From Candidatus Sulfotelmatobacter kueseliae (GTDB taxonomy: Bacteria > Acidobacteriota > Terriglobia > Terriglobales > Acidobacteriaceae): a DNA stretch of 64,000 nucleotides. The position numbers and the translations under genes were made by a program. Positions 3,241-45,920 of this stretch are shown piece by piece; position 1 is the stretch's first letter, and each line of letters starts with the position of its first letter. Location: the NCBI GenBank assembly GCA_900290255.1, contig OMOD01000188.1, positions 1 to 64,000 on the forward strand, written 5' to 3'. The notes beneath the pieces were generated by a model, which ran no database searches, was not told the DNA's origin, and worked only from the letters and a program-made list of their open reading frames with translations.

Positions 3241-4128
3241 CTACCGGAACAGATCATTCGCTGCAGGCCGAAGCAGATGGCGAACCCTGCCCGCGCCAGC
3301 CTCATACTCAAACCCGCGGACGATGCACGCCGGGGTTCGGTTGAGTTTGCCGCAGACCAGGCCCGCGGCGCAAGCCAGTTCGTCGGCTACAGCCTCAACG
3401 CTGGCGCGCAATTGGTAGCCGTGGGGGTCGCGGCGTCCACGCTCATCGCGCAGCGGCTTGATGCCGGCAATGCCGATCGCGACTTCGGTCAGCCCCTCGC
3501 GCCAGGGGCGGCCAAAGCTGTCAGTAATGATCACCGGGACGGTTACGCCCGTGCGCCTCCTGAGGTCGCGGCGAAGATTCGCGGCGGAACGATCGGGATC
3601 TTCGGGAAGCAGCAAGGCGTGCCCGCCGCCGTCGACGTTCGAAACATCCACGCCGCTGTTGGCGCAGAGGAAGCCGTGTTGGGTCTCGGTGATCAGAACG
3701 CCGTTCCGGCGGCGAATGACGGCGCGGGCCTGGCGCAGAGCCAGTTCTATCACGCGCGGGTTGAGGTTGTATTGCTTGGCCCAGGCGATCGATTCCTCAG
3801 AAGGCGCGAGGCTCGCCAGATCAACCAGGCGGCCTTCGGCCTTGGAGACGATCTTGTGTTTCACGATGAGGATGTCGCCGGCCTGGAGGCGGAGGCGGTT
3901 GCGGTGCATGGATGCGAGCAACTTGTCAGCGAGTGAGTCGCCGGGATGGATTTCGTCCGCGAACGGGATGGGGATCACGCGAAGTTCCACGGACGACGCA
4001 GGCGGGAGTTGCTTTCGCCCCTTCGGGGCTGACGACTTTTTCGCAGCTGACCCACGGCTCCCGCCGTGGGCTGCATTCTTTCGCCGCATCGCGGCTGATT
4101 CCTTTCTGGCTGGGTTGAGCTTGCCCAT
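3241..4128 (-). CDS. cofE: Coenzyme F420:L-glutamate ligase
   Basis: Adds glutamate residues to F420-0 using GTP, in the cytoplasm. The family core starts near residue 47 (VELRVIPIPFADEIHPGDSL). It includes GDILIVKHKIVSKAEGR, the segment CANSGVDVSNVD, and the region PVIITDSFGRPWREGLTEVAIG. About 45 residues before the core are basic and not family-like (GGSRGSAAKKSSAPKGRK). Their DNA contains the hairpin CCCACGGCTCCCGCCGTGGG, a dispersed-repeat type of sequence. The true start may therefore be the GTG at 3990 or the ATG at 4089. Unlike mycobacterial FbiB there is no fused nitroreductase domain. Confidence 0.92.
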   Translation of the reverse strand: MGKLNPARKESAAMRRKNAAHGGSRGSAAKKSSAPKGRKQLPPASSVELRVIPIPFADEIHPGDSLADKLLASMHRNRLRLQAGDILIVKHKIVSKAEGRLVDLASLAPSEESIAWAKQYNLNPRVIELALRQARAVIRRRNGVLITETQHGFLCANSGVDVSNVDGGGHALLLPEDPDRSAANLRRDLRRRTGVTVPVIITDSFGRPWREGLTEVAIGIAGIKPLRDERGRRDPHGYQLRASVEAVADELACAAGLVCGKLNRTPACIVRGFEYEAGAGRVRHLLRPAANDLFR

Positions 4129-8309: not shown

Positions 8310-9734
8310 TCATTTTCCCTTCAACAAAAATAGAAGATAGCGCAGACCGGGGCCGGGCGAAGTGATTTCAAAAACGTGCAGGAAACAATAAAAGCCCAAA
8401 ACGCAGGCCGGCGCGACCACCCTCTCGCGAAACCACCCTCGGGACCCGAGAGGTTTCCGAGGCCTCACTTGTGAAAGCGCAATGCCCAGCGCCAACAGGA
8501 CCGAATAGAAGAAATAGTTGCGAAAACTAAGGATCGTCGTCAGTAGACTAAAAGAGATTGCGGTGTGAAGAGTGCGGGTGAGGTGAAAGAGTGTGTTTCC
8601 CAGCGACGCTGCCACAAATGTTGCGAAGGCGATGCGAAGCTTCGGATACCGTTTGAAGCAGCGGATGAAGGTCGGATAAAAGAACATATCCACCAGGAGT
8701 TCTTTGAAATAGAAATAGTAGCGATTCCAATACTCGGCAATGGTTCTCGAAGAAAGAGGAGCGTAGGTATTGCGCAGCGCTCGGAACCCGGCCATGCGGC
8801 AGGTCGCGATAAAGGTATGTCCCCAGATCGAAATCTCCATCAACTGCTGCAACAGATCGTCGGGCCAGCTTAACCAGTTCCGTGCCCATCCCAGAGGTTG
8901 ACCCGCCTGAAACGCCTGAATGCACTGGCTGGGAGCGGGAATCGCCAATTTCTGATGGACCAAAAGTACGTAATAGCCTTGAACGCGACTCAGCAGCAAA
9001 CACCAGGCAATCAACTTCACTCCCTTGACCATGGTTACTGCCAAGTCTTCGGGGCTCCTGGCTTCTATGGTCCGCCAGTGCCTTGCGCCTTTCGGAATCG
9101 GAACACTGGTCGATCCCCAAAAGGGATGAAAAGTTCCGGCTTGCGACAGAAGGCGGTCACCCTGAGGCGTAGCGCAATCAGACATGGAATACGCCAGATA
9201 CCAAACGTAGAGGCAGAATGTATCGAGAAAAGCCCAGACTGCGAATCGGGCAAAGCCGAAGAGCGGCGCGTAGCAAGCCACAAGGAGCAAGGCGGAGCCG
9301 ATGCCCATCAGCACCAGCAGCGGCCTTCGGCCGACGAGGCTGTTCTTATAGGTTGCTGATAACCACATCAAGCCAGCGCAGAGGAAAACAAATGGAAGAA
9401 TGATCCAGAAGAATTCACTCGCGCGCGAGAATCCTGCCGGGGAGCGGCCCGCGGCCAAAGCCAGGGCTCCACGGTTAAACCAGAAGAAATCCGTAAGCAG
9501 GAGCGTGCCAATGGTGACCAGGAGGCGCCTCGCCTGAGGCACAAATGTTATGCAGGTGATGAGCGCCAGCTTCAATTGCCAGGCGCTACCCAGGATACTG
9601 AGAGCAAGGCCGAACACGGCCAGAAGGGCGAGCTTTCCAGGGACGGTTTGGACGAAGGCGATGACGCGAGGATCGTTTTCGAGACGGGGAATAAGCCGGA
9701 AATTTTTTGGCCAAGACGATACAGCTGGCAGCAA
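8310..9734 (-). CDS. MBOAT-like membrane O-acyltransferase (DltB-like position)
   Basis: 474-residue polytopic membrane protein with about ten hydrophobic segments. The region EYWNRYYFYFKELLVDMFFYP, read without its last residues, is the MBOAT-type cytoplasmic loop. A conserved-looking His lies in ASLGNTLFHLTRTLH, as expected for the active-site His of MBOAT enzymes. Such enzymes move an acyl or aminoacyl group from a carrier across the membrane onto a polymer. The reading frame begins with TTG at 9734 and has a weak ribosome site, so the start is uncertain. It lies between an amino-acid adenylating enzyme and a carrier protein. Target polymer unknown. Confidence 0.8.
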   Translation of the reverse strand: MLPAVSSWPKNFRLIPRLENDPRVIAFVQTVPGKLALLAVFGLALSILGSAWQLKLALITCITFVPQARRLLVTIGTLLLTDFFWFNRGALALAAGRSPAGFSRASEFFWIILPFVFLCAGLMWLSATYKNSLVGRRPLLVLMGIGSALLLVACYAPLFGFARFAVWAFLDTFCLYVWYLAYSMSDCATPQGDRLLSQAGTFHPFWGSTSVPIPKGARHWRTIEARSPEDLAVTMVKGVKLIAWCLLLSRVQGYYVLLVHQKLAIPAPSQCIQAFQAGQPLGWARNWLSWPDDLLQQLMEISIWGHTFIATCRMAGFRALRNTYAPLSSRTIAEYWNRYYFYFKELLVDMFFYPTFIRCFKRYPKLRIAFATFVAASLGNTLFHLTRTLHTAISFSLLTTILSFRNYFFYSVLLALGIALSQVRPRKPLGSRGWFRERVVAPACVLGFYCFLHVFEITSPGPGLRYLLFLLKGK

Positions 9735-9769
9735 GCCTTGTTTCCCGGGCGAGTCTAAAACCGCAGTGC

Positions 9770-11365
9770 TCAGAACTCCTCCTCATCCAGCTTTTTGGCG
9801 AGGATTTTTCGGTCCACCTTTCCACTTGAATTCACCGGCAGTTTATCCAGAACGTGCACCCTGTCCGGAACCATATAAGGCGGCATTCGCCGCCGCAGTT
9901 CGTCATTGGCTTCTCTGTCCGATCTCCCGGGCCCACTGACGAAGGCAACGATGCCGGCAGCCGTTCCAAACTGCATCGGCCATGCGACCGCGGCCACCGA
10001 CGGAGTGCGATAGACCTGCCGCAGGTGACTCTCAATGTCCTCAAGTTCCACCCGGTGGCCGCGAATCTTGACTTGGTTGTCGATGCGTCCGAGATGATGA
10101 AACAGGCCACGGCCGTCCTGGTATGCAAGGTCGCCAGTCAGGTACCATCGCGTGCCATTCTGCTCCACGAAACGTGCGGCAGTTTTCTCGGGGTCATCAA
10201 GATAGCCGAGCGCCAATTGCGGACCGGCGAGCACCAGTTCCCCGGTCACGCCTGTGGGTACGGTGCGGCGGGATGAATCCCACACGGCTGCAGCGGAACC
10301 CTCCAACGGCCTGCCAATCGCGATCACGTCCCGTTCCTTCGTGACATTTGGGATTTCGCCCACTCGTTCGTGCAGGCAGACCACGGTTGCTTCGGTTGGT
10401 CCATAGACGTTGTCCACAACGGAATTCGGGGCAGCTTCCTTCCAGGCCAGCGCGACTTTTGCCGGGAGGGGTTCCCCGGAAAACAGGCTGACTCGGAGGG
10501 TGGGGAAGGCTCCGGCTGCCAGCATGCCCATCCGTCCCATAGCCGCCGCCACGGATGGTACAGAGAACCAAACTGTAATGCCGTGTTCCTGGATGTACCT
10601 TGCCGGAGCGATTGCCTGGCTCCTGGGGATGGCATGCAGCGAGGCTCCGGCGTTCCAGGTCATAAACATGTCGAACACAGATATGTCAAAGCTGGTGTCT
10701 GCGGTCTCCGCGATACGGTCTTCAGCTTGAAGGTCATAACGGCGCTGCATGATCCTGATGAAATGGGACACAGCGCCATGCGGAATGGCCACTCCTTTTG
10801 GAATGCCTGTGCTACCGGAAGTGAATTCGATATAAGCCGGAGAGTCGGCTCGCACTGGCCGCGGTTCGAAACGGCGTGCTTCCGGGAGATCGCCGAATGT
10901 ACGCCACTGGGAATTGGCGGCAAGAGCTTCTTGCCCTGGAACCAGGACTTTCCGGGGCAGATGGGGGACAAGTTCCGCTGTCAGTTTCTGTAGTCCCGTG
11001 GAATCCGCGATCAGCGCATCCAGGTTCAGCCGGTCCAGGAGCGCAATGAGCGCCTCCGGCGGCTGACTCAGATTGAGGGCAACGTAAGCCGCTCCTGACC
11101 ATGCTGTGCCCAGAATACCGGCACACGCTTCCCAGCTGCGCGAGGCAAGAATGCCGACCCGGGAGGGTGTGAGCTGGCCGGATTCACTGAGCCACTCTGC
11201 AATCCGTCGTACTGTGGTCAAAGCTTCGCCGTACGTGTGTTCCTGTCCACCGGCAGAGACGCACAATCGATCAGGGAAGCGGCTGGCTGAGCGGGAAAAA
11301 GGCCATGCAAGATTAAGGCTTAGCCCCATCGCTACGCGGGCAGGACGCGCTCCACAGCCGGTCAT
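9770..11365 (-). CDS. Amino-acid adenylating enzyme (DltA-like / stand-alone NRPS A domain)
   Basis: 531-residue ANL-superfamily ligase that would activate an amino acid as its adenylate and load it on the carrier at 8028-8303. Core motifs in order: phosphate loop FTSGSTGIPKG, specificity region SFDISVFDMF (the Asp that binds the alpha-amino group is kept), NVYGPTEATV, YLTGDLAYQDGRG, hinge GRIDNQVKIRGHRVELE, and catalytic Lys in PVNSSGKVDRKIL. No condensation or carrier domain is fused. First gene of the three-gene unit, 35 bases before the MBOAT gene. The substrate may be D-alanine as in DltA, but the binding pocket cannot be decoded reliably by eye. Confidence 0.87.
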   Translation of the reverse strand: MTGCGARPARVAMGLSLNLAWPFSRSASRFPDRLCVSAGGQEHTYGEALTTVRRIAEWLSESGQLTPSRVGILASRSWEACAGILGTAWSGAAYVALNLSQPPEALIALLDRLNLDALIADSTGLQKLTAELVPHLPRKVLVPGQEALAANSQWRTFGDLPEARRFEPRPVRADSPAYIEFTSGSTGIPKGVAIPHGAVSHFIRIMQRRYDLQAEDRIAETADTSFDISVFDMFMTWNAGASLHAIPRSQAIAPARYIQEHGITVWFSVPSVAAAMGRMGMLAAGAFPTLRVSLFSGEPLPAKVALAWKEAAPNSVVDNVYGPTEATVVCLHERVGEIPNVTKERDVIAIGRPLEGSAAAVWDSSRRTVPTGVTGELVLAGPQLALGYLDDPEKTAARFVEQNGTRWYLTGDLAYQDGRGLFHHLGRIDNQVKIRGHRVELEDIESHLRQVYRTPSVAAVAWPMQFGTAAGIVAFVSGPGRSDREANDELRRRMPPYMVPDRVHVLDKLPVNSSGKVDRKILAKKLDEEEF

Positions 11366-13655: not shown

Positions 13656-14322
13656 GTGGCAGCCGGACCTGTAAGCCGAATTCTGTCCGCCGGATTGCTC
13701 CGGCGGGACGGCCATTCCTCTGGGCCGCGCATTACTGCCCGGCTCTAGCGACCTACCCGGAGGTTTGACGCACCGAGCCGGCACGTGCTCCGCCGTCGCT
13801 CGCAGCGCTTTGAGGATGCGTGCCAAACGCGCCCTTCGGTCGCTTGCGCTCCCTCAGGGCAGGCTCCCAGGATTCGCGCGGCACGCCCAGATCCTTCGCT
13901 CAACAAAAAGACGTTTCGCTCAGGATGACAAGCGCTGAGAGCGACAGCGGGGCTCCCTCCCTATTTGGTCTTGCTCCGTGTGGGGTTTGCCATGCCCGCG
14001 GCATTACTGTCGCGGCGGTGCGCTCTTACCGCACCTTTTCACCCTTACCCTGGCGTCGTTGCAGGGGCTTTGTGGGGCGGGCACTCTTGCCCGCCAGCGC
14101 GCACAAGAGTGTGCGCGCCACACAAAGCCCTCACAACGACGCCAAGGCGGTATGTTTTCTGTGACGCTTTCCGTCCGCCAGACTTGAATCTGGCGTCCCG
14201 GACGTTATCCGGCACACTGCTCTGCGGAGTTCGGACTTTCCTCCCCGCCCATTCTCGTAAGAGCCGCCGGTGCGATGCTCTTGCCAGAATGGGCGGGGCG
14301 GCCGTCCGGTCCGGCTGCCTAC
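13656..14322 (-). ncRNA. rnpB: RNase P RNA, bacterial type A, with two large insertions
   Basis: The catalytic RNA of RNase P. On the minus strand the conserved core reads in order: GAGGAAAGTCCGAACTCC, CAGAAAACATACCGCC, GGTAAGGGTGAAAAGGTGCG, GTAAGAGCGCACCGCC, GGCATGGCAAACCCC, AGCAAGACCAAATAGGGAGG, CCGGGTAGGTCGCTAGAGCC and ACAGAATTCGGCTTACAGG. The ends pair as helix P1 (GGCAGCCGGACC with GGTCCGGCTGCC). The gene is about 667 nt, against roughly 350-420 in most bacteria. Two stretches account for the excess: P12 (14051-14145) and the P15-P17 region (about 13763-13956). Both contain palindromes of dispersed-repeat type. All reading frames across it are spurious. Confidence 0.95.
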
Positions 14323-36061: not shown

Positions 36062-37267
36062 TTACGCCGCGGGCCTCAGCACTGTACAAACAGAGGCGCA
36101 GATGGGGCCCCCGATGTTGAACGTCGCCGCCACACGCGGATTCTTCACTTGCAATTCGGCGGGAGCCTTGCCCCGGAGTTGCCACGCGCACCAACCCAGC
36201 ATGGCGACCCCGGTGGCGCCGATGGGATGGCCTTTGGCAATCAGTCCGCCGGAGGTATTGATGGCGCACTCGCCGTCCACGCCCGCCTTGCCCTCGCACC
36301 AGTACCGGGCGCCCTGGCCGACGGCAGCCTTGCCCAAAACTTCTGTGCCGATGGCGCCCATCACCGTGAAACAATCGTGCACCTCGGCCAGGCTCACATC
36401 CCCGGGCTTGACGCCGGCCATGTCATAGGCCTTGTTCATCGCCCGGTAAGCGCCCTCGGGGCGCAGAACATCGCGTCCCGCTTTCTTCAGGGGATCGGTC
36501 GCCTGAGCATAGCCGGCGATCTCCACGCAGTCGGCCTTGGTCACGCCGAGCTTCTGCAACCCCTCATCGGTGGCCAGGATGAGGCTGGCGTAACCATCGG
36601 TGATCTGGGAACAATCGTAGGTCTTCAGCGGCAGGCCCTCGACGATATAACGATTGATGCCTTCGATCTTCATCGCCTGGTCCAGAGTGATCTGCACATT
36701 GCGCATCTGCGCGTAAGGATTGTGGCGGGCGTTGGCGTACTCGACAACCGCAATCTGCGCCAGGTCCTCCTCCCGCACTCGATGCACTTTCAAATAGCAC
36801 TCCATGATCTCGGCGAACAGGTGGGGAAAGATGAATACCTTGCCTTCGCGCTCATCGGGGTGGGAAAAGTAGCCCAGAGCCTTGCCGATGAGCTTGCCAT
36901 CCATCTTGCCTTCGGCATCGCGCATCTTCTCGTACCCGACAGCGACGCCGACGTCGCCCCAGCCCAGCAGGAGCTTCTGGATGACGGAGAGCACGGCCTG
37001 ACCGCCGGAGGCGCAGGCGTTCTCGACGGATTCTATGGGTTTGCCGCCCAGGCCCGGCAGCATCGCCATCAAGCCGGCGAGCAGACCCTGTTCGTTAAGG
37101 GAAATGTTGCAGGTAGCTCCGATCGAGCCTACATCCAGCGCCGCCGGCTCGACGCCAATCTCGCTGCACGCGCCGAGGATTGCGTTCTGGATGATCTCCG
37201 GTACAGACATGGCCATGAGTTTTCCAAACTTGGATTGATGGTAGGCGGCGATGTAAATGCGTTTCAT
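36062..37267 (-). CDS. SCP2/SCP-x-type thiolase family protein
   Basis: 401-residue thiolase. The acyl-accepting Cys is in VENACASGGQAV. The active-site His residues are in AEVHDCFTVMGAIG and GGLIAKGHPIGATG. The second catalytic Cys motif of classical thiolases (CSGGG type) is absent, as usual for SCP-x-like members. In archaea such thiolases pair with a DUF35 zinc protein, but none is here. Last gene of a seven-gene minus-strand operon, 10 bases after the acyl-CoA synthetase. It would cleave a beta-keto-acyl-CoA or make a carbon-carbon bond in reverse. Confidence 0.9.
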   Translation of the reverse strand: MKRIYIAAYHQSKFGKLMAMSVPEIIQNAILGACSEIGVEPAALDVGSIGATCNISLNEQGLLAGLMAMLPGLGGKPIESVENACASGGQAVLSVIQKLLLGWGDVGVAVGYEKMRDAEGKMDGKLIGKALGYFSHPDEREGKVFIFPHLFAEIMECYLKVHRVREEDLAQIAVVEYANARHNPYAQMRNVQITLDQAMKIEGINRYIVEGLPLKTYDCSQITDGYASLILATDEGLQKLGVTKADCVEIAGYAQATDPLKKAGRDVLRPEGAYRAMNKAYDMAGVKPGDVSLAEVHDCFTVMGAIGTEVLGKAAVGQGARYWCEGKAGVDGECAINTSGGLIAKGHPIGATGVAMLGWCAWQLRGKAPAELQVKNPRVAATFNIGGPICASVCTVLRPAA

Positions 37268-37277
37268 AGAACACCTC

Positions 37278-38882
37278 TTAAGATGGCTTGCGGGATGATT
37301 TGCCGGCTGACTTGCGCTTTGGCTTGGCAGTATCGCTTCCGGCGGCGGCAGGCTTGAGGTTCCGCAATCGATCTTGGAGCTCGAGTTTCAGGACCTTGCC
37401 GTAGGCATTGCGCGGCAATGCTTCTGTGAAAATTACTCGCCGGGGCAGTTTGATCTTATTGATGCGGGGACGGAGGAACTCGATGAGTTCGTCGGCGCTG
37501 GCCCGCGCGCCTGATTTCAGCGCAACGAAGGCGACTGGAACCTCGCCCCACTTCTCGTCGGTCGCTCCCACGACCGAGACCTCGGCAATGGCCGGATGAT
37601 CGAGTAATTCCTTCTCGATCTCCGCCGGATATATGTTGACGCCGCCGCTGATGATCATGTCTTTGGAGCGGCCTGCGATGTAGTAGAACCCATCTTCGTC
37701 GCATCGCGCCAGGTCGCCGGTGTGAAACCATCCCTCGGCGTCAAGCACCTGGGCGGTGGCGGCTGGATTGTTCCAATAGCCCCGGCAAACGTGCGGCCCA
37801 CGCAGGCAGAGTTCCCCAACCTGATTGGCGGCAACCTGCTTACCCTGGGGATCAAGGAGTTTCGCCTCCGTGAACATCATCGGCTTACCAACGGAACCAG
37901 ACTTACGCAGGGAGTCTTCGTTGCTCATGGCAAAGCAGTTCACGCCGACCTCGGTCAGCCCGTAGCCTTGGCGAAAAATAAGTCCGCGCTCCTGGTAGGC
38001 CCGGAGAATTTGCAGCGGAAGCGGAGCGCCTCCGCTGGCACACCAGCGCAGACGGCTGTCATCGAGCGCTGCTAAGTCTGGCGATTCCAAGAGCATTTTG
38101 AAGATTGTCGGTACGCCGAAAAAGAGGGTGCACTGGTAGTCTCGCAGCGCTTGCATAATTTCAGCGGCGTCGAAACCGTCATGCAGAACGATGCTGCCCC
38201 CGATGGCGAACAGCGGGGTCAGGAACACGGTGAGGCCGCCGGCGTGATACATGGGCGTGTAAACCTGAACCCGGTCACTCTGCCGCAACTGCCAGGAGAT
38301 CGCCGTGTTGTAGGCGTTCCATGCGATCTGCCGGTGTGGAATCATTACGCCCTTCGGCTGTCCGGTGGTGCCGCTGGTATAGAGCAGGCAGAAGACATCC
38401 TCGGGTTGGACTTTCGTTGCCAGCGGGTCTGGACGAACCCGATCTACAGCTTCGGCATAACTTAGCGTCTTCGGCGCACTACCTTCGGCATCCAGACTTA
38501 TTAAGTGCTCGAAGGCCACGAGCTGTTGGAGTTCCTTCGCGATCTTCTCGTACCGGGCGGAGTACATGAGGCAGCGCGGTTTGCAGTCCGCGAGTATCTG
38601 GTGCAGCTCACGAGCCGTGCTGCGTGTCCCCAGAGGAACGAGGATGATGCCGGATTTGCCCGCTGCCCAAAAGGCATCCACATATTCAACCCGGTTTTCG
38701 GAAAGAATGCAGACGCGATCTTCCGGGAGGAGAGCGCAGAGATCGGTCCAGACCCGCGCACACTGCAGGGCCCGTCGATTTAATTCCGCATAAGTGAACT
38801 CCCGGCGCGTGGGAATGTGGATCAACGCGACCGTGTCCGGGCTGAGACGGGCGCGCTCTCCGAGAATATCGCCTGTAATCAC
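37278..38882 (-). CDS. AMP-forming acyl-CoA synthetase
   Basis: 534-residue ANL-superfamily ligase. Motifs: FCLLYTSGTTGQPKGVMIPH, YGLTEVGVN, FHTGDLARCDEDGFYYIAGR and the catalytic Lys in LPRNAYGKVLK. It would activate a carboxylic acid (fatty, aromatic or other) as its CoA thioester. A Lys/Ser-rich tail (KPKRKSAGKSSRKPS) follows the enzyme part. The start overlaps the hydrolase stop by four bases. Within the operon it may prepare the acid released by the alpha/beta hydrolase for the thiolase. Confidence 0.91.
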   Translation of the reverse strand: MITGDILGERARLSPDTVALIHIPTRREFTYAELNRRALQCARVWTDLCALLPEDRVCILSENRVEYVDAFWAAGKSGIILVPLGTRSTARELHQILADCKPRCLMYSARYEKIAKELQQLVAFEHLISLDAEGSAPKTLSYAEAVDRVRPDPLATKVQPEDVFCLLYTSGTTGQPKGVMIPHRQIAWNAYNTAISWQLRQSDRVQVYTPMYHAGGLTVFLTPLFAIGGSIVLHDGFDAAEIMQALRDYQCTLFFGVPTIFKMLLESPDLAALDDSRLRWCASGGAPLPLQILRAYQERGLIFRQGYGLTEVGVNCFAMSNEDSLRKSGSVGKPMMFTEAKLLDPQGKQVAANQVGELCLRGPHVCRGYWNNPAATAQVLDAEGWFHTGDLARCDEDGFYYIAGRSKDMIISGGVNIYPAEIEKELLDHPAIAEVSVVGATDEKWGEVPVAFVALKSGARASADELIEFLRPRINKIKLPRRVIFTEALPRNAYGKVLKLELQDRLRNLKPAAAGSDTAKPKRKSAGKSSRKPS

Positions 38883-39859
38883 GAGTTCTCCCCTGGCTGT
38901 TTGTGAACGGACGGTGCAGCGGCGAACGCGCGGGCCGACTCGGGCGCGAGTATTTGCAACAAGACCCGCGTCAATTCCCGGGGACGCTCGAACTGGGGTG
39001 CGTGGCCGCAGCGCTCAATGACCGTAAGCGTGCAATGGGACAGCTGCGACTGTAGTTTCTTCGCATAGTCCAGCGGAACGAGACGATCGGAAGCGCCCCA
39101 CACGAGATCAACGGGCATTTGAAAGCTTCCCAGTTTGTCTTCGAGCAGGTAGTTCGATATATCTTCGACGCCGGCGGCCAGCAGCCGCGAAATGGGACCT
39201 GTATTTGAGACACGAACCAAATCATCGAGGACGAAATTCGCCGGACGAGGCGTGGAAGGATCCAGCACGGCGTCAAAGGCGCGCCGAGCTTCCTCCCGAC
39301 TCTTTGGCATGAGGCCAATCTCCGATGTGTTCCTGATGGGGCCCCCACCGATGAGGATGACCCGCGTCACCCGACGCGGGTATTTCTGCGCATAGAGCAT
39401 TGCCATCCAGGCCCCGAGCGAATTGCCAGCGAGCACCATCGGTGTGTCTCGCCATGGCATCGCGTCGAGCACCTGCTCCAGTGCGGTGAGCAGAGTGCCT
39501 AGACTCAGCACGCCCTGAACCGGGTCGCTCCCGCCATGGCCGGCAAGGTCCGGCATCAGCAGTTGAAAGTGGCGCTTCAGTTCGGCCGCCACTTTGTTCC
39601 AGGTTCCCGCTTGATCGCCTGCGCCATGGAGCAACACCAGCAAAGGGCCGGAGCCGCCGTGCCACACGGTCTGTCCTCCCACCGTGGTCGTAAGCTTTGT
39701 CTTCCGAAGGCCGGCGCGGCGAAGCGCATTCCTCCGTAACCAGACGATCGTGGCGAGAGGCCGCACAAAAAGAAAGATGAAGAAGGCAATCAGAGCAGCA
39801 ACTGCGGCGGAAACCAGCAGCAGTAGAATTTTGATTGCCAGGCCCACTCTGCTCCTCAC
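38879..39859 (-). CDS. Membrane-anchored alpha/beta hydrolase
   Basis: About 326 residues. An N-terminal membrane segment (LLLLVSAAVAALIAFFIFLF) is followed by an alpha/beta hydrolase. The oxyanion region is LVLLHGAGDQAGTW, the nucleophile elbow GNSLGAWMA, the Asp in WGASDRLVP and the His in RCGHAPQFERP. It could be an esterase, thioesterase or C-C hydrolase. Start taken as GTG 39859. GTG 39847 has AGGAG just before it and is equally possible. An open frame to 40135 overlaps the KASIII-like gene and is not protein-like. Part of the seven-gene operon. Confidence 0.86.
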   Translation of the reverse strand: MRSRVGLAIKILLLLVSAAVAALIAFFIFLFVRPLATIVWLRRNALRRAGLRKTKLTTTVGGQTVWHGGSGPLLVLLHGAGDQAGTWNKVAAELKRHFQLLMPDLAGHGGSDPVQGVLSLGTLLTALEQVLDAMPWRDTPMVLAGNSLGAWMAMLYAQKYPRRVTRVILIGGGPIRNTSEIGLMPKSREEARRAFDAVLDPSTPRPANFVLDDLVRVSNTGPISRLLAAGVEDISNYLLEDKLGSFQMPVDLVWGASDRLVPLDYAKKLQSQLSHCTLTVIERCGHAPQFERPRELTRVLLQILAPESARAFAAAPSVHKQPGENS

Positions 39860-39894
39860 GGGCGACTTGTTCAGAGATCGAGTCCGAAAGCCGT

Positions 39895-40890
39895 CTAGGG
39901 CATACGAAATGCGCAGCCCGCCTGATTGTAGCCAACCCCCGAACCCACCATCACGACCAGGTTGCCGGATTTGACCTTGCCCTGCTCGATGGCATGGTCG
40001 AGTGCCATGCCGACGCAGGCGGAGCCGGTGTAGCCATACTGTTCCATGACGGTATGGGCACGTTCCGCGGGTACGCCGAGACGCTCCATCACGCGTTCGA
40101 TCGTAGGTTTCCGCACTTGAGTAAAGATGAAGCAATCGACGCCGCGCAGATCAAAACCACCGTCCCTGGCGAGTCGTTCTACGATGACCGGCCAGGTCTC
40201 CTCGTTCAACTCCGGAGGATAGCGCTTCTTGATCGTGCAGGCGGTGCGCCCGGCCTTCACCGAGTCCTCGCTCGCCGGTTCGAAGGTGCCTCCGGAATAG
40301 ATTCCCCAATAGTCGTGATAGGAGCCGTCGGCGCGAAAGGTCGAAGTGATGAAGCCCGGGGAAGCGGCAGGTTCGAGCACCGCCGCGCCCGCGCCATCAC
40401 CATAGAAGAAGACCATGGGATCGGCAGCCGTCGTAAGCTTGTGCATAAGATAGACGCCGACGACCAGCACCGTCTGGATGCCCGGGTTGGCGGCGATGAT
40501 TCCCGCGGCCGCGGAAAGACCGGTTGGAAACGACGCACAGGCACAACCGACGTCGAACGTGCCGGCATTTTTCGCGCCCAGCTTGTACTGCAGCACGACC
40601 GAGGTAGCGGGCGTTATGTAGTCCGGTGAATCGGTGCCCAGGATGATCAGATCGACATCCTCGGGTTTCTTGCCGGCGCGCTCCAGGGCGAGCTTGGCCG
40701 CGGGCAGGGCGACGTCGCTGGTAGCCCAGTTTTCGGGGGCATGCCAGCGCGTCTTGATGCCGCTGCTGGCCTCCATCTTGTCGACAAATTCCGGAAGGGT
40801 AGCTTTGAAGCGCTCCCGCAGCATGTCATTGGTCACTTCTATCTCGGGTACGTACCTGCCGGTGGCAACAATGGTTGCGTAGCGCGTCAT
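39895..40890 (-). CDS. KASIII (FabH)-like ketoacyl synthase with replaced His and Asn
   Basis: 331-residue thiolase-fold enzyme of the FabH type. The nucleophile Cys118 is kept (DVGCACASFPTGL). The FabH segment with catalytic His (PHQANLRI type) reads FTQVRKPTIERV, giving Thr257. The segment with catalytic Asn (GNTSAAS type) reads GYTGSACV, giving Tyr287. These two regions align without gaps to FabH, so the replacement is real. Such an enzyme can probably take an acyl group on Cys, but decarboxylating condensation as in FabH is unlikely. ATG 40890 has GAGGA eight bases upstream. Third enzyme-coding position in the operon after the TonB receptor and SDR. Confidence 0.88.
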   Translation of the reverse strand: MTRYATIVATGRYVPEIEVTNDMLRERFKATLPEFVDKMEASSGIKTRWHAPENWATSDVALPAAKLALERAGKKPEDVDLIILGTDSPDYITPATSVVLQYKLGAKNAGTFDVGCACASFPTGLSAAAGIIAANPGIQTVLVVGVYLMHKLTTAADPMVFFYGDGAGAAVLEPAASPGFITSTFRADGSYHDYWGIYSGGTFEPASEDSVKAGRTACTIKKRYPPELNEETWPVIVERLARDGGFDLRGVDCFIFTQVRKPTIERVMERLGVPAERAHTVMEQYGYTGSACVGMALDHAIEQGKVKSGNLVVMVGSGVGYNQAGCAFRMP

Positions 40891-40918
40891 GGATGAGTCC
40901 TCGTGAAATTGCGGTATT

Positions 40919-41701
40919 TCAGGTTCCCAGTACAAATCCCCCATCGACGGAAAGCACGGTACCGGTGACGAATGATGCCGCGCCGGAGGCCAGCCACACG
41001 TAAGCCTCGGCAACATCTTCAGGTGTTCCCATGCGGCCCAGAGGCGTGTGCGAAACCATGGTCTGGATGACCTTCTCCGGCATCTTCTGCACCATTTCGG
41101 TCGCGATGAAACCGGGAGCAACGGCATTTACGCGGATATTGTATTTTGCCAGTTCCCGCGCCCATGTCCGGGCAAACGCTATGACTCCGGCCTTGGTGGC
41201 GGCGTAATTGGTCTGGCCGAAATTTCCGTACAAACCCACAATGGAAGAGGCGTTGAGGATCACGCCTGAGCCTTGGCGGATCATGTGGGGCACGACGGCC
41301 CGCGAACAAAGGAAGACACCTTTGAGGTTGACCGAGATGACCGAATCGAACGCTTCATCGGTCATCGTACCGACGACTGCGCCATCCTTCCACTTCACGA
41401 ACTGCGCGTCGCGCGTGATGCCCGCGTTGTTGATCAGTACGTCGACCGTGTTCCAACGGGCGACGATTTCCTGAACGCCCGCCTCGACGTCGCCGGAGTC
41501 ACACACGTTGGTTTTGCGGAACAGCGGCTCTCCTCCGGCCGAGGACAATTCGCGCAGCAACTCTTCCTGTCCGGAATCGTTGACATCCCATGCCGCCACC
41601 CGGCAGCCTTCGCTGGCGAACCGCCGGGCCGTGGCGCGGCCGATCCCCGCCGCGGCCCCGGTAACGATGGCGACCTTACCGCGCAGACCTGTGTCTTTCA
41701 T
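40919..41701 (-). CDS. Short-chain dehydrogenase/reductase (FabG-like)
   Basis: 260-residue NAD(P)-dependent reductase. Cofactor motif VTGAAAGIGRATA, NNAGITRDAQF, the catalytic Ser in LNASSIVGLYGN and Tyr/Lys in TNYAATKAG. The C-terminus (TGTVLSVDGGFVLGT) is typical. It probably acts on a 3-oxo or 3-hydroxyacyl group carried by CoA. It starts 7 bases after the TonB receptor stop, so it is clearly co-transcribed with the receptor. A role in general fatty-acid synthesis is unlikely in this context. Confidence 0.91.
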   Translation of the reverse strand: MKDTGLRGKVAIVTGAAAGIGRATARRFASEGCRVAAWDVNDSGQEELLRELSSAGGEPLFRKTNVCDSGDVEAGVQEIVARWNTVDVLINNAGITRDAQFVKWKDGAVVGTMTDEAFDSVISVNLKGVFLCSRAVVPHMIRQGSGVILNASSIVGLYGNFGQTNYAATKAGVIAFARTWARELAKYNIRVNAVAPGFIATEMVQKMPEKVIQTMVSHTPLGRMGTPEDVAEAYVWLASGAASFVTGTVLSVDGGFVLGT

Positions 41702-41708
41702 GCCTCTC

Positions 41709-44700
41709 CTAAAACGCGTACTTCAGTGCAAACTGGATGACCCTGGGCCCGGTGCTGGTCGACACGATGGACCCAAAGTTAGACGAGGGGTAGATTATGC
41801 TGACCGGGTTGGCAAAATTCACGTTGTTGAACAGATTGAAGAACTCGGCCCGGAACTCTACCCGTTGGCTTTCCGTCACCGGAATGAACTTCATGATGGA
41901 GAGGTCCGTGTTGATCTGTTTCGGGCCGCGAATGATGTTCCTGCCTAACTGTCCCCAGTCGGGAGTGAAGGCGGGGGGCAGCATGAAGGCCGTCGGGTCG
42001 AAATAAGCGCTCAAGCGGTCTTCAACGTTGCCGCTCTTGATTGCGGATGCCAGGGTTCGGCCGGTTACCAGGTCGGCTCTGGTCGCCTCAAACGCGTCTG
42101 CCCGTCCGAAGATGGAGAACGGCATGCCCGATTGCAGGGTCACGATGCCCGACAAGCTCCAGGAGTTGAGCGCTTTTTTCGCGAACCCCGAGCCGCCGTG
42201 ATAAGCGTCCGGGAGGTTATATAGATAGCTTGCGACGAAGCGCTGCCGCCGGTCGAAATCCGAAGAGGCATAGTTGCTCTGTTCGTCGACCATGTTGCCC
42301 GGGATCACCCCGATGTCGCTCACGTCGCTCCCGGAATAGTCATCCAGGGAATGTGACCAGGTGTAGCTGAGCAGCATTTGCAGGCCCTGAGCCAAGCGCT
42401 TGTTGAGGGTTACCTGGAGAGAGTTGTAATTGGAGTTAGAGTTACTCTCCATCAGGAAGCTGCCCAGTCCGGGGGCGGTCAGGTTGCTGAAACCGGGATA
42501 GAAAGGTCCGCCCAGACTTCCCGCCGAGGGCGGGACCAATGCGGGCAGGTCAAACCCAAACACTGTCGTCGGGGTATTCGCCTGGTTGAATGAGAACAGG
42601 CGCGGAAACTTGCGCCCTTCCGAACCGACGTAGCCCACGTCCAGCATCCAGTTATTGGCGAAGCTGGTTTGCACTCCGAGGTTGAAGGTTTGCACGTACG
42701 GGATGCTCCAGTCCTTCAGGTCCGGATAGAGCCCGGTGGCCGGAATTGGAAAGTCGATTGGCGCCGTCGTACCGTAAAACTGCACTGGCAGGAAGGCCGG
42801 ATATCCTCCAAATGGGAAGATGCCGGCATTACTCGGGCTCAGCGGGTCCAGCGGGAAGGCACTGGGTTGTGGAACCTGCACAAATGGATTTTCGTTCGGG
42901 GTAGCCAGCGCGGCGGCCATCATTTCGTAAGGCATGTTGAACAATTGGCTGTTATACAACCGCATGTTGGGCCGGTCGAAGAAGATGCCATAGCCGCCAC
43001 GCACCACAACCCGGCCGTTGTCCGTCGCCTGATAAGCGAAACCCAGCCGCGGCCCGAAGTTCTTGTAGTTGGGGTTCACCAAGCCGTTGCCGACCTTGGG
43101 AAATCCAGGCAGGTTTCCATTGCCGGCCTGGACGAATCCGCCGGTGACGACCGAGCCGCAGGTGCTTGGCGTGGCTGGGCAAGCAAGACCAAGCCCCGGA
43201 ATCAGCAGAGGAGTAGTGACGGCCTTCGTCGGATCGAAACCGACAAAATGGCCGTCGGTCTCGGTGGTGGGACCGAAGTAGTCATAGCGCAGCCCGAGGT
43301 TTAGCGTAAGCCGTGGGGCGACCTTCCAATCATCCTGGAAGAATGCCGAAAAGTCGTTGGCGCGGTTGTGCAGGCTGTTGGTGCCCGAGCCAATCACAGA
43401 GGCGCCGGTAAGCCCAGCGAGGAAATCTCCGAACGGATTGCCGGTGAAGCCCAGGTAGAAGAGCTCGCCGTTGGGGAAGACATCAAAATAGGGAGCGTCC
43501 AGCTCCTGCCGCTTGTATTCCCCACCGAACTTGAGCGTGTGCCGGCCCTTGATCCACGTCATCATATCGCCGCCGCTGTAGGTGTTGGTTGCCGCGTAGT
43601 TACTGGCCAACGGAGACGGCCCCAAAGTGAACATGTTCGTGAATGACATGGTCGGCATTCCCGGGAACAACGTACTTAGCGGCGACGCAATCCCTAACTG
43701 GGTGGAGGTGATGGGTTGAGATGGTTTGCCGGGGCCGTAAATCGTACTCCAGCCGAACCTCACCTCATTCAGCAAATGGGTCGTGATCATCGAAGTTACG
43801 CCTACCGAAAGCAGGCGCTGGTCAACATCTTCTTCGGTCGGCCAACCCGGCGCCTGCAGCGGGTTGCCATCGCCAAACTGATCATAGAGCGCCTGAACTG
43901 TGCGGTTGGCGGCAAAGAAGTACTTGGCGAAGAAGCGGTTTGAATTATTCAGTTTGACATCCAGATTGGTGTTGAACTGGTCCTCTTTATAGGTCGAGTT
44001 CGAGGGAATCGTCTGCACGACCGGACTGACCGACGCCCCGGTTGGGCAATTGCCAGTGGTGACACCGGGTATCGAAGGAATCATGTACTGGCCGTTGGGG
44101 AGGGTAGCGGTCAGAGCCGCTGCGGCCACGGGATCGACATATCCCAGGAATGTGGGGTTGTAACACATCGAAAGGGCAGCCAGAGAAGCGGGATCGCGCT
44201 CCGATCCCAGGAAGGCCGGCAGGAACATGGTGGAGAGCGAGTTGGTCAGCGAGGTGCCATTAGTTTCGCGAGTGCCCTGATAGGAGATAAAAAACCAGGC
44301 ACGATCCTTCACCAGCGGACCGCCCAGGGTGCCGCCAAACTGGTTGCGGTCGTAAGTGGGCCGCGGAGTGCCTTCGCTGTTCAGGAAGAAATTGTTGCCA
44401 TCGAGATCGGTGTTCCGCAGGAATTCGTAAAGATCACCATGGAACTTGTTGCTGCCGGACTTGGTGACCGCGGCCACGGCGCCGCCCGCGTTGCGGCCCG
44501 CCGAAGCATCGTACATGCTGGTCTGAACGATGAATTCCTGGAGCGAGTCGATGGAGGGCACGGCCAGATTTGGCATTGATCCCGTGCCGATGGAGTTGGC
44601 ATCGACGCCATTGATGACCACACTGTTGGAGAGCGCACGCTGCCCATTGACGTATACGGCGGCATCGCCGCGTCCCAGATCGGAGGAGTTCTGGATGGAA

Positions 44701-45200
44701 CCCGAGGTCCCCGTAGTCAGAGCCAGCAACTGCTGGAAGTTGCGGGTCGGCAGCGGTAGATCGCGCACCTGGCTCTCATCGATGACGGTACCGCGTGCCG
44801 AGCTTTCGGTTTGCACCAGCGGCGATTCGCCCGTGACCATAACCGTGGTCGGCGCAGTTGCCACCTTGAGGGCAACGTCGACGACCGTGCTTTCGGTGAT
44901 CTTGACCACGATGCCTTCCAGTTGCGCCGATGCAAATCCTGTCTGGATCACTTCCAGCCGGTAGGCGCCCGGGTCGAGCAGAGGAAACGTGTAACGGCCG
45001 TTGCCGCCGGTTGGGGCCTCGCGCCGCACGCCGGCGTCGCTGGTCAGGACGACTTTTGCTCCTGCCACGACGAATCCGCTGGGATCCGTCACCACGCCCA
45101 CGACCTGGCCGGTGGTGGCCGTCTGCGCCTGCGTTGCCGGTGCTATAAGACAGAAAATGCCGGCCGCCGCCAGCAGCGTCGCGAGTGTTAGCCTTCGCAT
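41709..45200 (-). CDS. TonB-dependent receptor with carboxypeptidase-regulatory-like N-terminus
   Basis: About 1,163 residues. Signal peptide LTLATLLAAAGIFCLIAPATQA, then the regulatory-like domain (GVVTDPSGFVVAGAKVVLTS to YRLEVIQTGFASA). The plug (LPTRNFQQLLALTTG, VAAVTKSGSNKFHGDLYEFL) and a barrel ending ALKYAF with terminal Phe follow. Start at ATG 45200, because AAGGAG lies five bases upstream. ATG 45221, which overlaps the tetR stop, would also be in frame. A dedicated receptor fused into an operon of CoA-type enzymes points to uptake of their substrate or its precursor. It differs from the receptor at 25829, which sits with glycosidases. Confidence 0.93.
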   Translation of the reverse strand: MRRLTLATLLAAAGIFCLIAPATQAQTATTGQVVGVVTDPSGFVVAGAKVVLTSDAGVRREAPTGGNGRYTFPLLDPGAYRLEVIQTGFASAQLEGIVVKITESTVVDVALKVATAPTTVMVTGESPLVQTESSARGTVIDESQVRDLPLPTRNFQQLLALTTGTSGSIQNSSDLGRGDAAVYVNGQRALSNSVVINGVDANSIGTGSMPNLAVPSIDSLQEFIVQTSMYDASAGRNAGGAVAAVTKSGSNKFHGDLYEFLRNTDLDGNNFFLNSEGTPRPTYDRNQFGGTLGGPLVKDRAWFFISYQGTRETNGTSLTNSLSTMFLPAFLGSERDPASLAALSMCYNPTFLGYVDPVAAAALTATLPNGQYMIPSIPGVTTGNCPTGASVSPVVQTIPSNSTYKEDQFNTNLDVKLNNSNRFFAKYFFAANRTVQALYDQFGDGNPLQAPGWPTEEDVDQRLLSVGVTSMITTHLLNEVRFGWSTIYGPGKPSQPITSTQLGIASPLSTLFPGMPTMSFTNMFTLGPSPLASNYAATNTYSGGDMMTWIKGRHTLKFGGEYKRQELDAPYFDVFPNGELFYLGFTGNPFGDFLAGLTGASVIGSGTNSLHNRANDFSAFFQDDWKVAPRLTLNLGLRYDYFGPTTETDGHFVGFDPTKAVTTPLLIPGLGLACPATPSTCGSVVTGGFVQAGNGNLPGFPKVGNGLVNPNYKNFGPRLGFAYQATDNGRVVVRGGYGIFFDRPNMRLYNSQLFNMPYEMMAAALATPNENPFVQVPQPSAFPLDPLSPSNAGIFPFGGYPAFLPVQFYGTTAPIDFPIPATGLYPDLKDWSIPYVQTFNLGVQTSFANNWMLDVGYVGSEGRKFPRLFSFNQANTPTTVFGFDLPALVPPSAGSLGGPFYPGFSNLTAPGLGSFLMESNSNSNYNSLQVTLNKRLAQGLQMLLSYTWSHSLDDYSGSDVSDIGVIPGNMVDEQSNYASSDFDRRQRFVASYLYNLPDAYHGGSGFAKKALNSWSLSGIVTLQSGMPFSIFGRADAFEATRADLVTGRTLASAIKSGNVEDRLSAYFDPTAFMLPPAFTPDWGQLGRNIIRGPKQINTDLSIMKFIPVTESQRVEFRAEFFNLFNNVNFANPVSIIYPSSNFGSIVSTSTGPRVIQFALKYAF

Positions 45201-45220
45201 ATTTTCTCCTTGTGTCGCCA

Positions 45221-45847
45221 TTACGGCTTCAAAGCTCGATCCTTAAGGTTGCGGGTGTAGAGACGGACAAACTGATCCACCGCTTCTTCGTTACTCACGC
45301 CGAGGTAGCGCCTGGCGCCGAAGAGCTCCTCCACCAGAAAATAAGTGACAAACTGCATGTACAGGCTGACGTAGGCAAGACCCGGGTTCACGTTGCGGGG
45401 AAAGGGAATCGGCGCCTTTTGAAACAAGGCGGCCGAATAAGTGCGCAGCCCTCCGGCCACTTCACGATAGCTCTGAATGAAATGCTTATGACGGAACTCG
45501 ACGACGTCGACGTACATGAGCCGCCAGTAGTCCAGATTCTCCGAGACGACGCGGCCGATGGCCATCCCCAGCTTCTTCAGCGACTCCGGATCGGGGGATT
45601 GCATCAAGGGGAAAATCTTTCTCTGCCGGAGGGCCTCCATTTTCTGCTCCATGCGCCGGACCAGACCGATGAATATGTCTTCCTTGGTCGGGTAGTAGAG
45701 ATAGAGCTTGCCCATGGATACGCCGGCCTGCTGGGCGATTTCCCGGACGGTGGTGCCGTGAAATCCTTGCCGGGTGAAAAGTTTTTGCGCCGCGCGTTCG
45801 ATCTTGAGCCGGTTCTTGGCGACGGTGTCGTCCAGAAGCTTGGGCAT
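45221..45847 (-). CDS. TetR/AcrR-family transcriptional regulator
   Basis: 208 residues. The N-terminal helix-turn-helix is classic: IERAAQKLFTRQGFHGTTVR, EIAQQAGVSMGKLYLYYPTK, EDIFIGLV. The C-terminal ligand domain is of its own kind. It is the first gene of the operon. Its stop overlaps the first possible start of the TonB receptor by one base. It very likely represses its own operon through the palindrome at 45869-45878 next to the promoter, with a substrate or acyl-CoA as the inducer. Confidence 0.93.
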   Translation of the reverse strand: MPKLLDDTVAKNRLKIERAAQKLFTRQGFHGTTVREIAQQAGVSMGKLYLYYPTKEDIFIGLVRRMEQKMEALRQRKIFPLMQSPDPESLKKLGMAIGRVVSENLDYWRLMYVDVVEFRHKHFIQSYREVAGGLRTYSAALFQKAPIPFPRNVNPGLAYVSLYMQFVTYFLVEELFGARRYLGVSNEEAVDQFVRLYTRNLKDRALKP

Positions 45848-45868
45848 ATCTTTATCCGCTAACCAAAA

Positions 45869-45878
45869 CGAGCGCTCG
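45869..45878. promoter_or_regulatory. Palindromic operator for the TetR-type regulator
   Basis: Perfect 10-bp palindrome CGAGCGCTCG lying about 7-16 bases downstream of the predicted transcription start, between promoter and the tetR ATG. A TetR dimer bound here would block RNA polymerase. Predicted from position and symmetry only. Confidence 0.6.
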
Positions 45879-45891
45879 CTCTAGGATGCGG

Positions 45892-45920
45892 ATTCTAAAA
45901 CGCCCCCTTTCGACTGTCAA
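45892..45920 (-). promoter_or_regulatory. Sigma-70-type promoter of the tetR-TonB-enzyme operon
   Basis: On the minus strand TTGACA (45920-45915), a 17-base spacer and TAGAAT (45897-45892). This is a perfect -35, optimal spacing and a five-of-six -10. Predicted start of transcription near 45885, about 38 bases before the tetR ATG. Confidence 0.75.

Follow-up and report, generated by a model that had tools for sequence, protein, structure and literature searches.

Operon layout

We describe here a predicted seven-gene operon in a 64,000-nucleotide stretch of DNA from Candidatus Sulfotelmatobacter kueseliae (assembly GCA_900290255.1; contig OMOD01000188.1, positions 1-64,000), hereafter the window. 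As the initial annotation had proposed, open reading frame (ORF) coordinates and profile matches place seven genes of the named families on the minus strand, running from 45847 to 36062 and either overlapping or separated by gaps of at most 35 bases: a TetR-family regulator, a TonB-dependent-type receptor, a short-chain dehydrogenase/reductase (SDR), an enzyme resembling beta-ketoacyl-acyl carrier protein synthase III (KASIII-like), an alpha/beta hydrolase, an acyl-coenzyme A (acyl-CoA) ligase and a thiolase (Table 1). By coordinates, the successive junctions are a 1-base overlap, gaps of 7, 28 and about 35 bases, a 4-base overlap and a gap of 10 bases. The start of the KASIII-like gene was corrected to 40890; that of the hydrolase very likely lies near 39859, where a GTG yields a hydrophobic-helix N-terminus, rather than at the listed TTG (40135), which falls within the KASIII-like gene. 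In the profile search the Plug match of the receptor was slightly below its cut-off. Completeness of the assembly is 96.1% and contamination 8.46%; a chimera is disfavoured because the operon recurs in other genomes.

Table 1. Features of the operon, in 5' to 3' order on the minus strand (window coordinates)
Feature	Coordinates	Strand	Length	Evidence
Sigma-70-type promoter, TTGACA-17-TAGAAT	45892..45920	-		11/12 consensus matches; similar layout upstream of TetR in relatives
Palindromic operator-like site, GAGCGAGCGCTCGTTT	45866..45881	-		Immediately downstream of the -10
TetR-family regulator	45221..45847	-	208 aa	PF00440 E 1.3e-14
TonB-dependent-type outer-membrane receptor	41709..45221	-	1170 aa	PF25183 barrel E 4.5e-198; CarboxypepD_reg PF13620 E 1.3e-16
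FabG-like SDR	40919..41701	-	260 aa	PF13561 E 3e-69; Asp39
KASIII-like enzyme	39895..40890	-	331 aa	PF08545, PF08541; Cys118, Thr257, Tyr287
Alpha/beta hydrolase	38879..39859 (start inferred)	-		PF00561 E 1.3e-23 (score from longer frame)
AMP-forming acyl-CoA ligase	37278..38882	-	534 aa	PF00501 E 1e-88
SCP2-type thiolase	36062..37267	-	401 aa	PF22691 E 1.8e-29; PF00108; Cys and HDCF motif

Distribution and gene order

Against the possibility, raised in the initial annotation, that homologues would prove to be scattered, a gene-order search in acidobacterial genomes found synteny conserved in 38 loci. The KASIII-like family is present in at least 35 of the 396 Acidobacteriota genomes sampled, the source genome included (E <= 1.1e-173), although this figure may be one too low: among ten further genomes matching at 3e-111 to 9.5e-117, which we regard as weaker relatives, the match in G517 is confined to model positions 1-203, with bits per position like those of the family, and is perhaps a cut copy. 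Within the order, a close copy was found in six of 200 genomes, again including the source genome. From the 45 matching genomes of the phylum set we fetched all 34 family loci outside the source genome and two of the ten weaker ones (eight, G517 among them, were left out), and with four loci from the order set this gave 40 fetched loci, of which 38 are family loci. A separate contig scan with the KASIII-like protein gave 65 loci, split by reading of the table into 48 family loci (57-95% identity, three of them being fragments of 63 to 201 residues at contig ends) and 17 distant ones (23-35%); the two sets of genomes overlap and are not independent, and presence counts are lower bounds, since several loci stop at a contig edge. 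With the window proteins as tblastn queries, the ligase was also present in 34 of the 48 family loci, the 14 without a ligase match being importer-type loci (see below), short contigs and two gammaproteobacterial contigs. In the 17 distant loci the same queries gave a ligase match in four (24-27%) and an SDR match in six (33-43%), and no match to receptor, hydrolase, thiolase or TetR in any. The two gammaproteobacterial contigs (L076, 2074-3087; L077, 9995-11008) carry the KASIII-like gene without other members, and in L077 it overlaps an NAD-glutamate dehydrogenase gene.

There are two ARRANGEMENTS among the 38 family loci, with 25 loci of a receptor type and 13 of an importer type; a scripted split gave 26 and 12, and reassignment of L147 by hand to the importer type produced the same split as in the tree. 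Same-strand runs of the receptor type include the ligase in 24 of the 25 loci, the SDR in 23, the hydrolase in 22, a PF25183-like receptor in 20, TetR in 16 and the thiolase, an optional member, in 11. The succession SDR-KAS-ligase is kept in 22 of these runs, the exceptions being L139 (where the ligase is on the opposite strand), L157 and L168. Between SDR/KAS and ligase, L155 and L162 have no intervening hydrolase (L155 has one of 28% identity upstream of TetR), and L163 has a second KASIII-like gene. The full seven-gene order of the window was found in five receptor-type loci (L144, L151, L152, L166 and L167), and three (L150, L161 and L163) have a Plug/PF00593 receptor in place of the PF25183-like one.

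The 13 importer-type loci carry a porin and a LIV-type ATP-binding cassette (ABC) importer, mostly with SDR, thiolase and hydrolase, and the fullest form, seen in six of them (L132, L133, L134, L142, L145 and L146), reads TetR-KAS-thiolase-SDR-porin-solute-binding protein-LivG-LivF-LivH-LivM-hydrolase. The ligase is absent from the run in this clade; a butyryl-CoA:acetate-type CoA transferase (under the model cut-off) lies near the unit in four of the 13 (L131, L140, L141 and L153), and in L147 a FadX-like CoA transferase (also under cut-off) lies inside the unit, between KAS and thiolase. The tree, built from 46 rows and carrying a long-branch warning for the PRK06840 row and L077, joins the importer-type rows in one clade (100/99) nested among the receptor-type rows and thus indicates that the exchange of the receptor for a porin, a solute-binding protein and a Liv ABC system happened once. 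A third, more distant arrangement, hydrolase-KAS-ligase, occurs in L164 and L165 (45-48% identity), with a PcaD-like hydrolase and a FadD11-like ligase, both under cut-off, in L164; neither locus gave a thiolase match within the fetched stretch.

These arrangements leave the "large hydrophobic" cargo of the initial annotation without a firm basis, given the three Plug/PF00593 receptors and the clade with a porin and LIV-type importer. PF25183 has 70 matches in this genome, fragments included, so the presence of such a receptor means little by itself.

Several loci also carry additional copies of related genes. L047 (9947-12195) has a tandem duplication of the family KASIII-like gene, and in L075 the KASIII-like gene is accompanied at close range by another one (8900-9913), of the PRK06840 family (418 bits, cut-off 315); such an additional gene, adjoining the first or close to it, was seen as well in L140, L141 and L153 (82-85% identical to the L075 PRK06840 copy) and in L163 (43%). 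Downstream of the operon in L052, L065, L066, L068 and L071 lie one to three tandem related genes, among which the L071 copy alone was named, as a VWA-domain protein (TIGR03436); we set these aside as lineage-specific neighbours rather than members of the operon.

Promoter and operator-like site

The initial annotation had also remarked on a good promoter and palindrome before tetR, and both hold up: the palindrome GAGCGAGCGCTC sits directly behind the TTGACA-17-TAGAAT promoter, with GAACGnnCGTTC-like sites at the equivalent place in some relatives. The promoter scan by itself proves nothing, because its single match in 11.6 kb compares with a mean of 3.3 matches when the region was shuffled; promoter and palindrome together are more than chance because layout and gene order recur in related genomes. 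Among the upstream regions of the window and ten relatives, TTGACA was found by eye in 10 of 11 and the palindrome GA(A/G)CGnnCG(T/C)TC in 6 of 11, with near forms in others, and the layout also precedes the KASIII-like gene in two importer-type loci (L142 and L148).

Across the 38 loci, 11 of 42 strong operator-like sites fell in promoter zones (the 200 bases preceding the TetR, receptor, SDR or KAS genes of the unit) against 1.3 expected, a count in which overlapping registers in L154 and L161 enter more than once and for which the consensus was first noticed in records some of which are also among those counted. Four comparison palindromes, which have fewer sites in total, fell in these zones in 1 of 9, 0 of 5, 0 of 21 and 2 of 28 cases. 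A strong site was not found in many loci. The conserved site supports a predicted autoregulation of the operon by TetR. No wider regulon can be read in the source genome, because a search with the operator gave 28 sites against 17 for a backward control and the only exact site was the window's own; a one-mismatch site at C55 has no evident target in the ORF list. A literature hit on the Pseudomonas TetR regulator PA3973 turned out to concern a different system.

The KASIII-like enzyme

The nucleophilic Cys is retained in all 43 rows of the alignment (the window, 25 receptor-type, 13 importer-type, two of the third kind and two gammaproteobacterial), and the two other catalytic positions are changed: the His position holds Thr in 42 rows and Ser in one, and the Asn position holds Tyr in all 43. 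The CAC, TQ and GYTGSA motifs are invariant in the 46 rows of the first alignment set. The protein resembles FabH, the KASIII of fatty acid synthesis, in its active Cys and in its thiolase fold with ACP_syn_III domains (PF08545, PF08541; predicted model with a mean predicted local distance difference test score of 90.5), the nearest structures to the model being FabH (4ryb and 4dfe, TM about 0.9). It differs from FabH in that not only His and Asn but also Arg249 (43 of 43 rows), Arg151 (Pro or Lys) and Trp32 (Phe in 40) are replaced, whereas the organism's own FabH1 and FabH2 have Cys, His and Asn all present, and the KASIII-like rows group apart from this pair in the tree (98/88). Judged by these comparisons, the KASIII-like protein is a distinct subfamily of a known fold, undescribed within our searches. 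Normal decarboxylating condensation is unlikely, because the His and Asn of established KASIII chemistry are lost.

The other enzymes

In the SDR, the active-site Tyr and Lys are present in 24 of 24 rows and Asp39 in all 23 rows bearing a residue there (one row is gapped); Asp at this position is the usual mark of NAD use. The thiolase Cys (NACA) and HDCF, the latter a motif of SCP2-type thiolases, are invariant in 15 rows. A GNS-G motif, one Asp and one His are invariant in 20 rows of the hydrolase, whose N-terminus is hydrophobic in the window copy (mean Kyte-Doolittle score of 3.0 over 19 residues), and 20 of 24 copies, two of them from importer-type loci, have a hydrophobic stretch in the part of the frame around the N-terminus. 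PcaD-like hydrolases, under the model cut-off, were matched in 10 and 7 of the 25 receptor-type runs. The ligase has 8weu, 8wev and FadD13 as best PDB entries, and none of the 25 NCBIfam models shown reached its cut-off, the best being NF004837 (452 bits, cut-off 476).

This FadD-like ligase, together with a hydrolase whose best PDB entries are ABHD6 and 6i8w and a TetR whose best NCBIfam model is that of FadR (NF053878, at 43 bits against a cut-off of 200), could be taken to mean ordinary salvage of fatty acids or monoacylglycerols under a FadR-like TetR, the KASIII-like protein being a minor thioesterase. A housekeeping role, however, would not explain why only six of 200 genomes of the order have the gene, nor a family-specific KASIII-like enzyme so highly conserved (57-94% identity to the window copy over 13 chosen rows from two phyla), and we think such salvage very improbable.

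One could also envision the use of hydroxyalkanoate oligomers or lactones, resembling oligomers of polyhydroxyalkanoate (PHA), in which a receptor or porin would import the compound, hydrolases cut it, the SDR oxidise the 3-hydroxy acid, the ligase or CoA transferase activate it and the thiolase split it. Every gene but the KASIII-like one fits this scheme, the CoA transferases are related to those for short acids, and PHA-depolymerase and lactonase models also give scores for hydrolases of the relatives. Those scores are far under cut-off, however, no curated PHA family was matched, and the hydrolase matches amount to general alpha/beta-hydrolase similarity. The scheme would also leave the most conserved gene without a role, and it seems to us quite unlikely.

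Neighbouring features of the window

Just past the end of the operon, an amino-acid permease (PF13520; 34576-35983, plus strand) is split into two overlapping frames, the first covering profile positions 1-107 and the second 126-404, and the gene therefore looks frameshifted or reflects an assembly error. Elsewhere in the window lie a class A RNase P RNA (13656-14317, minus strand) and a match to the Acido-Lenti-1 RNA (4051-4096, plus strand; 47.4 bits, gathering score 37). The RNase P RNA measures 662 bases, compared with 367 positions in the model, and contains several long insertions.

Discussion

We favour, with a probability of about one half, the reading that this is a TetR-repressed catabolic operon whose products would import an acyl ester or lactone, hydrolyse it, activate the acid with CoA, oxidise it and cleave it, with the KASIII-like enzyme performing a non-decarboxylative step on acyl-CoA. 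Catabolism of an imported compound is suggested by the importer exchange, the extra hydrolases, the NAD-type SDR, the thiolase and the varied means of CoA activation, which across the loci include an ANL ligase, a FadX-like CoA transferase and a butyryl-CoA:acetate-type CoA transferase. Starting from the genes, with their families and shared order, from the promoter and palindrome that recur, and from the named residues, we infer the following steps. TetR, bound to the palindrome, would block its own promoter until released by an acyl ligand; the receptor would carry an acyl ester or lactone across the outer membrane; and the membrane-anchored hydrolase, assisted in some relatives by PcaD-like hydrolases, would free the acid, which the ligase would convert to acyl-CoA. 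The SDR could then oxidise a 3-hydroxyacyl-CoA with NAD, and the SCP2-type thiolase could cut the resulting 3-ketoacyl-CoA. The KASIII-like enzyme, the one constant member, would act through its Cys on CoA thioesters without decarboxylation, in an acyl transfer or a Claisen or retro-Claisen step on the imported acid. The derived clade would keep the same logic with a porin and LIV-type ABC importer replacing the receptor, the ligase missing from the run and a CoA transferase nearby in some loci.

Several observations weigh against this interpretation. In 14 of the 25 receptor-type runs no thiolase was seen; G014 and G093 gave no thiolase match at E 1e-20, and in G094 the thiolase is on a separate contig. 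In one importer-type locus (L131) neither thiolase, SDR nor TetR was seen, and the two gammaproteobacterial loci have unrelated neighbours and no shared partner gene. The conserved neighbours include no recognised acyl-CoA dehydrogenase or hydratase; such enzymes may act in trans, and each of 10 genomes gave PF02771 matches outside the unit. The direction of metabolism is not settled by transporter families, and a FabG-like SDR can also reduce.

Alternatively, the operon could be biosynthetic: the ligase would activate a fatty acid, the KASIII-like enzyme join two acyl units, the SDR reduce the product, the hydrolase release a lipid or lactone, and the receptor re-import the product or a signal. 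The kinds of genes do resemble a KAS, ligase, SDR and hydrolase set such as Ole, and L164 and L165 have adjoining hydrolase, KAS and ligase genes with no thiolase match in the fetched stretch. Yet none of the 43 rows has the His and Asn of a condensing KASIII, the derived clade has an ABC system with a solute-binding protein, an importing kind, and the SCP2 thiolase with HDCF and the NAD-type SDR point to degradation; we therefore hold biosynthesis to be unlikely.

The comparison with OleABCD drawn in the initial annotation fails on closer inspection. Both sets have one each of a KASIII-fold enzyme, an alpha/beta hydrolase, an ANL enzyme and an SDR, but the operon adds a receptor or importer and a second thiolase. 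Its SDR matches PF13561/PF00106 and gave no match at 0.001 to PF01073, which we take to be the OleD-type SDR family. The active site of OleA consists of Cys, His and Asn, whereas the KASIII-like enzyme keeps the Cys and has Thr and Tyr at the other two places. At FabH Phe87, which may correspond to OleA Glu117, the family has Thr or Ser. The PDB entries that we take to be OleA, although the table does not label them so, reach about 56 bits with the KASIII-like query against 138 for the best FabH. OleA itself carries Glu117-Pro (PMC7064751). Identity with OleABCD is thus ruled out by the SDR family and the KASIII-like active site.

Other described systems match in part. PhlACB and the archaeal thiolase-HMGCS complexes likewise place a KASIII- or HMGCS-like gene together with an SCP2-type thiolase gene, and the thiolases match 6esq and PhlC chains. 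PhlA (PMC6392133) lacks the Cys that the KASIII-like family retains. A search for the bridging-subunit (DUF35-type) domain PF01796, whose control matched 6 of 14 and which did not include the companion domain, gave no match in any of 10 genomes, and on this count DUF35-bridged complexes were ruled out. Beta-oxidation with an SCP2-type thiolase shares the ligase, NAD-type SDR and thiolase; the operon differs from it in the extra KASIII-like enzyme, the dedicated receptor or importer, and the lack of an identified dehydrogenase or hydratase. Steroid side-chain degradation was rejected, the steroid-24-oyl-CoA synthetase model scoring 272 bits against a cut-off of 750 without being the best hit, and no curated model being matched. 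OleABCD, FabH, the steroid ligase and the PhlACB/HMGCS-type complexes all disagree with the operon in one or more of the features tested, and literature searches found, for the terms used and in the library consulted, no paper dealing with the gene set in its title or the opening of its abstract. The initial annotation's view of an import and CoA-ester unit outside the known pathways is in keeping with these results, since the conserved unit matched no pathway model tested. We thus conclude that the operon is real, conserved and, within these searches, without a match to a described pathway, its parts belonging to known families.

Beyond the catabolic operon that we favour, a bolder and more tentative proposal places the KASIII-like protein at the head of a functional class new to the thiolase superfamily: as a Cys-Thr-Tyr enzyme, it might carry out non-decarboxylative C-C cleavage or acyl transfer on an imported acyl-CoA. 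It would then be the centre of an interchangeable uptake module (TonB receptor, or porin and ABC importer), built by Acidobacteriota for some compound that is common in soils or sediments and has an undescribed breakdown pathway.

Acidobacteriota are abundant in soils and sediments, yet substrates are known for few of their uptake systems; a receptor bound by conserved synteny to a short set of enzymes offers a direct way to one. The KASIII-like subfamily, in turn, would test what the thiolase fold is capable of once the His and Asn by which condensing enzymes are defined have gone.

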